From Rhizocola hellebori (GTDB lineage Bacteria; Actinomycetota; Actinomycetes; Mycobacteriales; Micromonosporaceae), in contig NZ_BONY01000016.1 of assembly GCF_016862955.1 (NCBI RefSeq), forward strand, positions 1 through 64,000: a stretch of DNA of 64,000 nucleotides. The letters run 5' to 3'. Position 1 is the first letter of the stretch; each line of letters opens with the position of its first letter. Position numbers and translations under genes: made by a program. The notes below the pieces were generated by a model. That model ran no database searches. It had not been told where the DNA came from and worked only from the letters and a program-made list of their open reading frames with translations. This document shows positions 7,041-63,231 of the stretch, one piece after another.

Positions 7041-7376
7041 GTGACCGAAACTGCCCATTGGATGACCTTGCCGGACGTCGCCGAACGGCTGAACTTGTCG
7101 ATCGTCAAGGTTCACCAACTGATCAAAGACGGCTCTTTGCTTTCCGTCCGCCGCGACGGGGTGCTTCGGGTGCCCGGCGAGCTGATCGCCAACGACACCG
7201 TGCTGAAGCACCTGCCTGGCGTTCTGACATTGCTGCACGACGCCGGGTACAACGACGAAGAGGCGTTGCGGTGGCTCTTCACCGAGGACGACACCCTTCC
7301 GGGGACCCCCGCGGCGGCACTCGGCGGCGACTTGGCGCGTGAGGTCAAGCGGCGCGCGCAGGCGCTCGCCTTCTAG
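7041..7376 (+). CDS. Rv2175c-like DNA-binding protein (wHTH/excisionase-type)
   Basis: A 111 aa protein with an N-terminal winged helix (WMTLPDVAERLNLSIVKVHQLIKDGSLLSVRRDGVLRVPGEL, given here as separate motifs: TLPDVAERLNLS, then KVHQLIKDGSLL) and a helical C-terminal half (LPGVLTLLHDAGYNDEE, ALRWLF). This is the arrangement of mycobacterial Rv2175c, a DNA-binding protein phosphorylated by PknL. GTG 7041 is preceded by AAGGTG; the longer frame reaching back to 6393 lies over other genes and is rejected. It is divergent from the kinase-side genes, matching the mycobacterial order. The 3' end overlaps the convergent mannosyltransferase by 32 bases. Confidence 0.88.
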   Translation: MTETAHWMTLPDVAERLNLSIVKVHQLIKDGSLLSVRRDGVLRVPGELIANDTVLKHLPGVLTLLHDAGYNDEEALRWLFTEDDTLPGTPAAALGGDLAREVKRRAQALAF

Positions 7377-8838
7377 CCACGAGCACTATCAGCGCCGCGG
7401 TGACGGCGAACGCACCCACAGCTTTGGTCAGCACAGGAACCCCCAGCCCGTTGGGAAGGGTGAGGAAGGTGCAGATCACCGTCGCCGCGGCGAGCCAGCG
7501 CCGCTTGTCCGTCGCGCTGGCCGCCAGCACCGCTAGCGGGGTTATGGCGTACCACGGATAGAAAACCGGGCCAAGGATCGCTGTCGCAGCAAGGGCCAGC
7601 CCGCTGGCGACGACGATTTTCTGGGTACCGGTGCGATGCCGCCACGCCCAAAAAAGCAGCGATATCCCAAGCACCGCAAGCGCTGCCACGCCCACCACCC
7701 GTGCCACGGCGATCGGTCCTTCCGGGGCAAACCCGAAGGGGCGCAACAGATATCCGATGGTCATCCCCACCGCGGTGGGCACCGAGCTCCACTGAGCCAA
7801 CTCCCCGGTGCCCCGCAACGCTTGCACCCAACCCAAATCGAGCCCGGTGGCCAAACTCAGCCCGGCAAACCCGCCGACCACGCCAGCCGCCGCAGCCCAC
7901 CATCGCCGCCCAAGCAAGATGAACACAAACGGCACCACCGCGATCGCCGTGACCTTCACCGCGACCGCCCCCGCCAGCACCACTCCCACCACCACCGCCC
8001 GACCCCACAACCCCGCCCGTGCTCCTTGCGCTGCGCCATGACCGTCGCGACTTCGGGGAATTCGCGGCTTCGCGGCGCCCCAAAACCGCGATTTCCCCGA
8101 AACTGCGGCCTCCTCGTGGCGGCGACCGGCGGCAAGGGCGGCGGAGCGGTTGGTGGCTGCGATGGTCAGCGCGGTGACGACGAGCGCGGCGACCAGCAGG
8201 TCGTTGTGGGCAGCGGACAGGCCGTGGACGAGAATCAGCGGGGTGACCACGCCCAGCCACGCGGCCGAAGCTGGCGAGAGTCCACAGTGGACGGCCAGTT
8301 TCGGGGCCTGCCAAGCGAGAACGAGCACGCTGGCCACGGCCAGCAGCCGAAGCACGATGATCCCGGTGACCAGATTTCCGGCGGCCGCGGCCAGACCGGA
8401 CAGGGCGATCGCCAACGGGCCATAGGGCGTCGGGGTTTGCCACCACAGCTGAGGCACCGCCTCGAACCACGGGCATCCGCCCGCTTGAACCCCGACCGCG
8501 TAGGGGTCTTGGCCGTGGTTCCAGAGCCAGCCCTGACAGGCGTAGGCGTAGACGTCCCGGCTGCCCAGCGGAGGCGCGAACAGGATGGGCAGCGCCCACA
8601 GCGCGCCGGTCAGCAAGACCGTTCGCAGATTGGGCGTGGGAAGTTTCCACCACGCCACGGTGAGGACGACGCCGCCGGCCAGCCAGCACACCAGGCCCAC
8701 GCTGAATGAGGCGGGCACGGCAGCGAAGCCGCCGGTGCGAAAACCTGCGCCGGGATCTCCGCCGGGGTGGGCGCCGGCCAGCGCCGCGGCGGCAGCCAGC
8801 AGCACGGCACCGGCCAAGCCACACCACCGCCAAAACAT
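7345..8838 (-). CDS. mptA: Polyprenol-phosphomannose-dependent alpha-(1->6) mannosyltransferase (MptA/Rv2174-like)
   Basis: Integral membrane GT-C glycosyltransferase of the family that elongates lipomannan/lipoarabinomannan-type mannan from polyprenyl-phosphate mannose. At 497 aa it has about a dozen hydrophobic helices and an early loop with SRDVYAYACQGWLWNHGQDPY, matching the family's acidic catalytic loop (SRDVYAYACQG and GQDPY are the key parts). A later HGLSAAHNDLLV motif is also typical. Residues about 230-275 hold a hydrophilic insertion (SGKSRFWGAAKPR, IPRSRDG) encoded by an imperfect palindrome. A TAACAT box six bases before ATG 8838 suggests a leaderless start. Synteny with Rv2174 supports the assignment; the substrate in this organism is unknown. 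Confidence 0.85.
   Translation of the reverse strand: MFWRWCGLAGAVLLAAAAALAGAHPGGDPGAGFRTGGFAAVPASFSVGLVCWLAGGVVLTVAWWKLPTPNLRTVLLTGALWALPILFAPPLGSRDVYAYACQGWLWNHGQDPYAVGVQAGGCPWFEAVPQLWWQTPTPYGPLAIALSGLAAAAGNLVTGIIVLRLLAVASVLVLAWQAPKLAVHCGLSPASAAWLGVVTPLILVHGLSAAHNDLLVAALVVTALTIAATNRSAALAAGRRHEEAAVSGKSRFWGAAKPRIPRSRDGHGAAQGARAGLWGRAVVVGVVLAGAVAVKVTAIAVVPFVFILLGRRWWAAAAGVVGGFAGLSLATGLDLGWVQALRGTGELAQWSSVPTAVGMTIGYLLRPFGFAPEGPIAVARVVGVAALAVLGISLLFWAWRHRTGTQKIVVASGLALAATAILGPVFYPWYAITPLAVLAASATDKRRWLAAATVICTFLTLPNGLGVPVLTKAVGAFAVTAALIVLVARRRAPARAA
8044..8109. repeat. Imperfect palindromic element inside the mannosyltransferase gene (copy 1)
   Basis: The left arm at 8044-8069 and the reverse complement of the right arm at 8084-8109 agree at 20 of 26 positions, both centred on TTCGGGGAA with TCGCGG beside it; the loop is 14 bases. 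The same core in the same inverted layout occurs at 28833-28898. It keeps the reading frame and encodes the low-complexity insertion. Confidence 0.65.
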
Positions 8839-28601: not shown

Positions 28602-28666
28602 CCTTTGCTCTGCACCCATAGGCGCAACTTCATGGTCAATGTGCGTGTATGGGTGCAGAGCAAAGG
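28602..28666. repeat. Perfect 19-base inverted repeat
   Basis: CCTTTGCTCTGCACCCATA at 28602-28620 is exactly repeated in inverted form at 28648-28666, separated by 27 bases; the spacer also has a short GCGCA/TGCGT pairing. It starts about 30 bases after the SDR stop and could be a terminator or a mobile or repetitive palindromic unit. No T-run follows. Confidence 0.8.
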
Positions 28667-28832
28667 TGCGCGGAGAGCACACCTTCCGCTGGTCGGCGGC
28701 GCAGCCGCCGGGCGCAACCACGCACGGCGGTCGCGTTGCCGCCGGGAGGAACGGCGCCCGACCCCGACGGGCCGACGCAAGGAAAAGGCCCCTCCGCCGC
28801 ATGCCGCTCCACCTTCGCCGCCGCGCACGATC

Positions 28833-28898
28833 GTCGCGATTTCGAGGAAAACGTTGCTACAGCGGGAGTGGATCGCGCGTCTTCCCCGAAATCGTGGC
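28833..28898. repeat. Imperfect palindromic element (copy 2, TTCGGGGAA family)
   Basis: 28833-28853 and the reverse complement of 28878-28898 agree at 17 of 21 positions, with the shared core CGATTTCGGGGAA (one arm has A for G). The layout and core match the element at 8044-8109 in the mannosyltransferase gene, so this looks like a dispersed family. Confidence 0.65.
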
Positions 28899-28935
28899 CA
28901 GCCGGCGGTGCGAAAGGCAGAGGCGCGGCAGCCTC

Positions 28936-61873: not shown

Positions 61874-61905
61874 CACTGCACGTTATCTATCCCCCATATG
61901 GGACT

Positions 61906-63231
61906 ATGTCCGATGTGGGGGATAGATCGCGTTTAGGGCTGCCGGCGGCCACTGCCCTCGTCCTGGGCACCATCATCGGCACCGGCGTGTTCACCCTGCC
62001 GGCAGCATTGGCGCCCTTCGGCACGATCAGCCTGGTGGCGCTCGTCGCGGTCACAGTCGGGGCGGTGGCCCTGGCGCTGGTGTTCGCCCGGCTCGTGGCG
62101 CGCGACCCGAACACCGGCGGCCCCTACGTCTACACCCGCGACGCCTTCGGCGAGTTCGCCGGTTTCCTGGCCGCCTGGTCCTACTGGATCTCGGGCTGGG
62201 CCGGAAACGCCGCTATCGCCGTGGCGTGGGTGGGCTACGTCGATGTCTTCATCCCTGTGCTGGATCACGTCTGGAGCGCCGTCCTGACCACCATCGTGGG
62301 GCTGTGGCTGCCCGCGCTGGTCAACCTCAGCGGCCTGCGCAACGTCGGCGGCTTCCAGGTGGTCGGCACCGTGCTGAAGTTCGTGCCGTTGCTGTTCATC
62401 GGTGTCGTCGGCCTGTTCTTCATCGACGGGGCCAACTTCGGGCCGTTCAACGCGACCGGCGGCAGCGTGTGGGCGGCCTTCTCCGCCGCCGGAGCCGTAC
62501 TCCTTTTCAGCTACATCGGTGTGGAGTCGGCCTCGATCGCGGCGGGCGCGGTGCGCGACCCGGCCCGCAACGTCGGCCGGGCCACCGTCACCGGAACGCT
62601 GGCCGCGGCGGTGGTCTATTTCCTTGGCACCATTGCGGTTTTCGGCACCGTGGGCACGACCGCGCTCAAGGATTCCACGGCGCCTTTCGCCGACGCGATG
62701 AACGCGATGTTCGGCGGCTCGCTGGGCGGCAAGCTGATGGCTGCGGCAGCCGTGATCTCGGGCTTCACCGCGCTTGTCGGCTGGACCCTGGTCACCGCGG
62801 AGATGTCGCTCGCCGCGGCCCGCGACAGGGTGTTTCCCGCCTGGTTCGGCTTGCAGCGCCGCGATGTGCCGTGGCTCGGGGTGATCGTCGCCGCGCTGCT
62901 GGCCTCGCTGCTGACGATCGCCAACTTCACCGAGGGGCTGACCGCCACGTTCACCGCGATCGCCCTGCTGACCGGGTTCACGGTGACCATCCCGTACCTG
63001 TTCTCGGCCGCGGCTCAGCTTTACTGGCTGCTGCGTGAGGGACGCCGGCCGGGGCGGCCGTTCGACTTCGTGGTGGCCCTGCTCGCACTGGCGTTCTCCT
63101 ACTGGATGATCATCGGTGGCGGCGAGACGACGGTCTTCGAAGGTTTGCTTATGCTGCTGGCCGGCGTACCGGTTTATGTGTGGATGAAAGCCCGCAGGTC
63201 CGGCGCGGAGAATGTCGGAGGCAGGGCATAA
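61906..63231 (+). CDS. APC-family amino acid permease
   Basis: A 441 aa secondary transporter with about twelve helices. The first helix has the unwound ligand-binding motif GTIIGTGVFTLPAAL, typical of APC permeases (arginine/ornithine or basic amino-acid antiporter type). NTGGPYVYTRDAFGEFAGFLA and SYIGVESASIAAGAVRDPARN follow the family pattern. The substrate cannot be told. ATG 61906 has no clear ribosome site. It stands between the liv operon and polA. Confidence 0.9.
   Translation: MSDVGDRSRLGLPAATALVLGTIIGTGVFTLPAALAPFGTISLVALVAVTVGAVALALVFARLVARDPNTGGPYVYTRDAFGEFAGFLAAWSYWISGWAGNAAIAVAWVGYVDVFIPVLDHVWSAVLTTIVGLWLPALVNLSGLRNVGGFQVVGTVLKFVPLLFIGVVGLFFIDGANFGPFNATGGSVWAAFSAAGAVLLFSYIGVESASIAAGAVRDPARNVGRATVTGTLAAAVVYFLGTIAVFGTVGTTALKDSTAPFADAMNAMFGGSLGGKLMAAAAVISGFTALVGWTLVTAEMSLAAARDRVFPAWFGLQRRDVPWLGVIVAALLASLLTIANFTEGLTATFTAIALLTGFTVTIPYLFSAAAQLYWLLREGRRPGRPFDFVVALLALAFSYWMIIGGGETTVFEGLLMLLAGVPVYVWMKARRSGAENVGGRA

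Follow-up and report, generated by a model that had tools for sequence, protein, structure and literature searches.

The mptA-like mannosyltransferase gene of Rhizocola hellebori contains, in frame, one copy of a dispersed family of short hairpin repeats, here called A-type. We judge it fairly probable that this family is REPIN-like, a non-autonomous REP doublet of 66-74 bp in which two inverted dyads of about 21 nt keep a centre-to-centre register of 41 bp. On the best reading, its copies usually lie near stop codons and occasionally insert in frame, as Rickettsia palindromic elements (RPE) do. The DNA analysed (the window) comprises positions 1-64,000 of contig NZ_BONY01000016.1 in the R. 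hellebori assembly GCF_016862955.1, the genome to which all genome-wide counts for R. hellebori refer. Its relevant features are as follows.

7345-8838, minus strand: mptA-like polyprenol-phosphomannose-dependent alpha-1,6-mannosyltransferase gene, 497 aa, interrupted in frame.
8040-8113, minus strand: first A-type hairpin element, 74 bp extended, with a 66-bp core at 8044-8109; codes residues 242-267 EEAAVSGKSRFWGAAKPRIPRSRDGH.
8040-8064, plus strand: left arm of the mptA copy, including the dyad around TTCGGGGAA.
8089-8113, minus strand: right arm of the mptA copy, inverted, its dyad centre about 41 bp from that of the left arm.
28602-28666, no strand assigned: family B palindrome with arms CCTTTGCTCTGCACCCATAGGCGCA; it belongs to a different dispersed repeat and shares its gap with the second A-type element.
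28688-28780, no strand assigned: family E repeat (GTCGGCGGCGCAGCCGCCGGGCGC...), about 93 bp, dispersed in the genome and in that same gap.
28829-28902, plus strand: second A-type element, with a 66-bp core at 28833-28898, between convergent genes.

The gene at 7345-8838 had no Pfam match at E ≤ 1e-3. Among NCBIfam models, MptB (NF038066) scored above its cut-off and mannopyranosyltransferase A (TIGR03459) under it. The neighbours, named by eye, are a kinase, a small DNA-binding protein, a polyprenyl synthase and a metF-like gene, a neighbourhood that we take to resemble that of mycobacterial mptA. The closest mptA genes were those of Catellatospora (52-56%) and Allorhizocola (48%); these and the R. 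hellebori lineage presumably all belong to the Micromonosporaceae.

A first-pass annotation of the window had placed a palindrome at 8044-8109 inside the mannosyltransferase gene. These coordinates are exact and span 66 bp, and pairing reaches 74 bp. The annotation had also reported a second copy with the same core and layout at 28833-28898; its position is exact and its length again 66 bp, but the core is not identical. One arm of this copy reads TTCGAGGAA and the other TTCGGGGAA, and the two middles, though equal in length, differ in sequence. It lies 255 bp from the end of the upstream gene (SDR-like by eye) and 167 bp from that of the downstream gene. With up to three mismatches, the half-site GTCGCGATTTCGGGGAA occurs four times in the window, these being the two pairs, against 0.28 expected, and none of 100 shuffles had four. 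When the half-site is scored as a fixed-offset inverted pair, total mismatches are 3 and 4 at these two sites and 13 at the third-best site of the window; the best pair among 60 dinucleotide shuffles has 11. Since GTCGCGATTTCGGGGAA was derived from these same sequences, both tests are partly circular; copies elsewhere in the genome are not, and the weight of evidence rests on those.

Other repeats occur in the same window. Family B is a 65-bp palindrome (arms TTTGCTCTGCACCCATA) with nine forward matches to a strict pattern and about 16 places by BLAST in the R. hellebori genome, its copies being far more alike than those of family A. The GC-rich family E occupies more than 30 places, several close to contig ends, and a family-E-like stretch abuts a truncated A-type copy at C54:34255. 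At 61880-61932, shortly 3' of an apparent gene end, lies a near-perfect palindrome (ACGTTATCTATCCCCCATATGGGAC / GTCCGATGTGGGGGATAGATCGCGT).

A covariance model built from nine R. hellebori copies located at least 14 full-length places at E ≤ 0.0041, five of which were not in the model, and two weak or partial ones; 14 is a lower bound, with the best 150 of 5392 candidates scored across 10.77 Mb in 207 contigs. The mptA copy scored E 1.7e-13, itself having been among the model-building copies. The first-pass annotation had named a lack of further genomic copies as what would count against its reading; this genome-wide search shows that such copies exist. It also leaves next to no probability to the explanation that the peptide is a normal part of MptA that resembles 28829-28902 by chance. 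Loop length does vary among relatives, in keeping with that explanation, but the window pairs beat all 60 shuffles by a wide margin, relatives outside two lineages have no matching element in the gene, and the copy number refutes it outright.

For six of the 14 copies a contig end (of C44, C7, C130, C153, C116 or C54) is no more than 450 bp away, a position in which 1.7% would be expected (binomial p 7e-8). The assembly thus tends to break at copies, and further ones were probably missed. By context, three are convergent, two tandem, one divergent, three called inside open reading frames, and five unclassified at contig ends. Where an intergenic copy has genes on both sides, its distance from the nearer gene end is 24-255 bp or more; these copies are not flush with stop codons. 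Besides mptA there are two possible coding copies, both uncertain: one at the C-terminus of a P450-like frame (L040) and one in a membrane glycosyltransferase-like frame cut by a contig end (L034), each named by eye.

In A-type elements two dyads, inverted to each other and with centres usually about 41 bp apart, enclose a variable middle. The R. hellebori consensus arm is the dyad CGCGATTTC-GGG-GAAATCGCG. A simple script placed the dyad centres 40.5-41.5 bp apart in 11 of the 14 copies and 30.5, 36.5 and 46 bp apart in the other three; the middle 20 nt vary in sequence at nearly fixed length. Folded as DNA and compared with shuffles, the mptA copy gave z -2.5 and the 28829 copy z -1.0, the latter no better than many shuffles.

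The family extends beyond R. hellebori. Twelve of 61 genomes matched the model at E ≤ 1e-3, R. hellebori included, with G003, G005, G031 and G051 matching weakly; at one of the two G005 loci (L079), a clear palindrome was absent. A wider scan of the phylum, with the best 16 candidates scored per genome, found matches at E ≤ 1e-4 in at least two of 296 genomes, R. hellebori and G003. Arm sequences are specific to each lineage while the layout stays constant: ACGTTTTGCAGCAAAGCGTGG in G009, GCAGTTTCGGGGAAAGTGC in Catellatospora KI3 (G016), CAACTTCCGGGAAGTCGTTG in G022, and GACGTTTTCAGGGAAAACGTC in G046, from another family of the same order. In G009, half-sites with up to two mismatches numbered 198 forward and 193 reverse, against 0 and 1 for a reversed-pattern control, which puts the genome at about 195 copies. 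An apparent strand bias of these half-sites was dismissed on finding the 'missing' partners in the copies fetched. Among Catellatospora genomes, matches to the KI3 variant alone, those in genes included, numbered at least 38 in G016, 39 in G068 and 28 in G069, and at least 5-10 in eight others.

Some short sequences recur beside elements. AAGATC or GATCTT borders several copies across genera (R. hellebori, G009 L150, G003 L077 and M. noduli L217) as well as palindrome D, described below; it could be a target sequence or else belong to the element's outer portion. Near elements in G009 (L147, L152, L082) a short dyad recurs, CAACTCTTCAAGAGTTG or its variant with a central G, and at L152 it adjoins GATCTTGG. 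Another palindrome, TGGCACG ... CGTGCCA with GGAGCGCAGCGACTGAGCCCCGCAGG inside, splits an A-type copy at L154 (G009:C2:725300-725800).

To describe placement and geometry we used a contiguous, unselected 1.2 Mb of G009, with genes called by a simple codon-usage method. It contains 38 copies; 20 shuffled patterns gave 0 or 1 matches. With offsets from 30 to 52 allowed, 37 of the 38 copies fell at a single one, and 20 of 22 KI3 copies, taken from the model's match list, were likewise regular. In the 37 regular G009 copies the centres are 52% conserved and the arms 94%, a figure inflated because the copies were found via their arms; two of 666 centre pairs are identical. Since the centres differ, these copies do not represent one fresh burst. 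Bases flanking the core tend to pair with each other, at a level that none of 5000 shuffles reached for a selected G009 set and 28 of 5000 reached for the unselected one. The mean predicted RNA folding energy of the G009 elements was -53.9 kcal/mol, against -32.0 for random stretches. In most of 52 G009 copies, four of the six frames can be read across the element without a stop; by our own estimate this is close to expectation from composition, and we rejected it as a special property.

Much of this would also suit a non-mobile origin, in which two-way terminators or mRNA 3'-end hairpins evolved locally and were kept alike by a host factor whose sequence preference changes between lineages. 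Arms far better conserved than centres, the scarcity of identical copies and the pairing of flanks just outside the core all favour it. So does gene context, which speaks for the REPIN-like reading as well. The 38 G009 copies comprise 19 convergent, 17 tandem, 2 intragenic and no divergent ones, in a stretch with 155 convergent, 485 tandem and 184 divergent gene gaps (Fisher p 9e-6 for the convergent excess and 2e-4 for the lack of divergent copies). The nearest stop codon is within 15 bp in 24 of 36 intergenic copies. Among the 17 tandem copies, one overlaps a gene end, and in 3 the start of the downstream gene is nearer than the stop of the upstream one. Placement is thus flush with stop codons in many G009 copies and looser in R. 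hellebori. A selected G009 sample (half-sites plus model matches, n = 32, the mptA copy included) divided into 13 convergent, 13 tandem, 3 divergent and 3 intragenic copies, and the top of the KI3 model list (n = 22) into 11, 8, 3 and 0. In the broad sense of many short palindromes that are mainly extragenic and at gene 3' ends, the family is therefore REP: 36 of 38 copies are extragenic in G009, none divergent, and 22 of 22 in KI3, three divergent, the R. hellebori genome being too fragmented to judge.

Several observations nevertheless stand against the non-mobile explanation. No T-tract was found beside the hairpins in the G009 copies examined, which gives no sign of classic intrinsic termination. 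It would be hard for a 66-bp unit of near-constant register to evolve de novo repeatedly, and in-frame copies lie in five G009 genes as well as in R. hellebori mptA. Moreover, whole elements are present or absent between congeners. In one convergent gap, KI3 carries the element, as does G068; in G061 the stop codons are about 7 nt apart, and G065 has no such element. G069 has an element there in the opposite orientation beside an 18-bp palindrome, and G070 a palindrome of similar size and different sequence. Five of the 11 genomes in this comparison were aligned, the other six being read from coordinates only. Taken with the points in its favour, we regard a non-mobile origin as unlikely, if worth serious thought.

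The in-frame copies were followed most fully in mptA. Across 30 plus 80 mptA loci, which include some genomes under two names, the model, which would miss strongly diverged variants, matched within the gene only in R. hellebori, G009 and Catellatospora bangladeshensis. In Catellatospora the element is present in the mptA of C. bangladeshensis and absent from that of C. paridis, C. vulcania, C. coxensis, C. sichuanensis, C. tritici and KI3. Alignment with relatives, suggested at first pass as a way to see a clean insertion, bore this out in part: most orthologues have no model match, but in R. hellebori mptA the surrounding loop, too, exceeds that of relatives in length, so that neither a clean boundary nor a target duplication is demonstrable there. 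C. bangladeshensis mptA likewise has extra loop residues beyond the element.

G009 has copies in five genes: mptA; one for an acyltransferase 3-SGNH protein (Pfam); and three named by eye, at the C-terminus of an MptB-like protein, in a formimidoylglutamate deiminase-like amidohydrolase and in an MMPL-type transporter. The in-gene copies add a peptide of 20-26 residues, which contains RFAAKR in four of the five G009 cases and RFAANG in the deiminase-like protein. Judged by sequence comparison, the family is RPE-like in that it has in-frame copies in unrelated genes that appear to be absent from orthologues; the orthologue comparison concerns the mptA loci, where three genera have a copy and the other loci scanned have no model match. 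The view that this is a dispersed repeat family tolerating coding insertion, put forward at first pass, gains support from the 14 or more genomic copies and from mptA relatives that mostly have no match.

In MptA the element-coded residues 242-267 sit between two hydrophobic segments. An AlphaFold model of the R. hellebori protein (26 sequences) had a mean pLDDT of 91.6, with the lowest values, 55-64, at residues 251-270 in a loop between long helices; by blocks of ten, only the C-terminal tail (68) otherwise fell below 70. The same loop contains another palindrome, D (arms GATCTTGCGCGAACTGT, 67 bp), which is in frame in five of seven Catellatospora species, C. bangladeshensis included (L156, L157, L159, L185, L208), and which is a dispersed repeat too: in C. 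bangladeshensis it recurs at a distance of 6 kb (L157:13077-13143). These data suggest that the MptA loop received no fewer than four palindromes in independent events, provided that the A-type sequences of the three genera represent separate insertions; that they do is suggested, though not proven, by the differences between their sequences. A mptA relative in G001 has a different palindrome with 21-bp arms in the neighbouring loop (L106, 2451-2514). The mptA loop as a general hot spot for inverted repeats was considered and rejected: 7 of 109 loops scored at least 12, compared with three genes in any control window, and five of the seven share the one D palindrome, with some genomes doubled (L094/L158), so independent events are few.

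Accounts of REPINs usually include RAYT transposases, and we searched for such an enzyme. PF01797 (Y1/RAYT) was found in none of the 12 genomes with model matches, four of these matches being weak, although the same search found it in G020 and G021, both without a model match at E ≤ 1e-3, and in five of 14 control genomes. The elements might still be REPINs mobilised by a RAYT that was lost, has diverged beyond PF01797 or is on an unassembled plasmid, a special case of the REPIN-like reading for which architecture and gene-end placement, both matching published REPINs and REPs, can be cited. Set against the PF01797 result and a consensus that contains no GTAG tag, we think this decidedly improbable and, going by the genes detected, set RAYT aside as a candidate mobiliser for now.

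Terminal inverted repeats, small size and dispersal are equally traits of a MITE, the internally deleted descendant of a DDE insertion sequence whose transposase would act in trans, an explanation that partly overlaps the REPIN-like one. No autonomous parent bounded by far-apart half-sites, nor any longer element with these ends, was present in the 1.2 Mb of copy-rich G009, where two altered copies account for the three orphan half-sites. By eye, the aligned flanks of R. hellebori, G009 and KI3 copies show no constant target-site duplication; the single empty site read, in the KI3 convergent gap, is too diverged to show one. Each arm is moreover itself a dyad, and to our knowledge dyad arms are unusual for the termini of MITEs or DDE insertion sequences. 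These points make a MITE origin quite unlikely. A candidate composite element in L150, where two copies about 1 kb apart flank an AbiEi-like gene (by eye), was rejected: the copies share only an 80-bp block and were taken as a duplicated copy, not a transposon.

The REPIN-like reading can be set against described systems. REPINs, as Bertels and Rainey (2011, PMC3116915) present them, are REP doublets that form hairpins, in which sequence counts for less than spacer length and pairing. A-type elements resemble them in having inverted conserved ends at a constant distance (37 of 38 copies in G009, 20 of 22 in KI3 and 11 of 14 in R. hellebori being regular), a variable spacer, and a dispersed, mostly extragenic distribution. 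They differ in that no RAYT/Y1 gene was found in any of the 12 genomes with model matches, in that by eye no GTAG tag is seen in the R. hellebori, G009 and KI3 consensus, and in having as each arm a near-complete 21-nt dyad in a 41-bp register, with a sequence that varies between genera at a stable register.

CGTC-tagged REPs, as described by Di Nocera (2013, PMC3733652), form HH doublets with no dedicated transposase; convergent copies lie within about 20 bp of both stop codons, and some are in frame in genes, adding 20-30 residues. The word "Actinobacteria" does not occur in the main text of that paper, which mentions untagged REP-like families in M. tuberculosis. In the doublets, the transposase not found, the stop-codon placement and some in-frame gene copies, the A-type family is similar to them. 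As for the tag, which in those REPs is a terminal CGTC (or TGTC or CCTC) outside the stem, the R. hellebori consensus has GATCGTCGCG, from which many of its copies differ, G009 has NGTC, and the KI3 copies shown are without it. In contrast to the 8-9 bp stem starting with paired AT and the loop of 4-5 given for CGTC-tagged REPs, A-type stems start with GC (R. hellebori), AC (G009) or GC (KI3), and the loop is GGG or shorter by eye. Because these stem and loop rules and the RAYT link of REPINs do not apply to it, we do not file the element under either class.

RPE, as described in PMC2229807 and PMC10969869, are 105-150 bp long and lie in frame inside unrelated conserved genes. As in those accounts, the A-type palindrome occurs in frame in unrelated conserved genes and adds a peptide; unlike the RPE so described, it is mainly extragenic and 66-74 bp long, the comparison being by description, not by sequence. 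With MITEs, as outlined in PMC10969869, it shares small size, inverted-repeat ends and a non-autonomous nature and differs in that, within a limited search, target duplication and a parent transposon were not found. Among the papers listed, judged by title and the opening of the abstract and with subscription journals mostly outside reach, we found no description of such elements in Micromonosporaceae or actinobacteria.

A REPIN-like family of this kind could have arisen as follows. A trans-acting enzyme would recognise the arms as DNA hairpins and spread the element. Copies would survive where a hairpin at a 3' end is harmless, or useful as a two-way terminator, and rare copies within genes would survive if the net inserted length is divisible by three and the site is a flexible loop, such as, in MptA, the one that probably lies between two membrane helices. 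Against the REPIN-like reading count the negative searches for a mobilising enzyme (12 genomes) and for an autonomous copy (1.2 Mb of G009), the failure to see a constant target-site duplication or a single clean insertion in mptA, the missing T-tract, the looser placement of the R. hellebori copies, the divergent copies in KI3 and in the selected G009 sample, and the weak DNA fold of the 28829 copy. A bolder version, to which we give less than even weight, is that a RAYT-independent REPIN-like system operates in this actinomycete order: some enzyme would spread and homogenise hairpin doublets whose arms turn over by genus at an unchanging 41-bp register, and a single MptA loop would be a recurrent landing pad that yields new protein sequence.

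What seems to be new here is that no RAYT was found, that the register hardly changes while the sequence does, and that a single MptA loop has been used repeatedly. This contrast between sequence and register suggests a protein that gauges how far apart the two dyads are. A doublet family with REPIN anatomy, high copy number and no Y1 enzyme found is a place to seek a different mobiliser. The repeated use of the MptA loop, for its part, offers a natural series in which to follow how the insertion of a ready-made hairpin becomes tolerated protein sequence.
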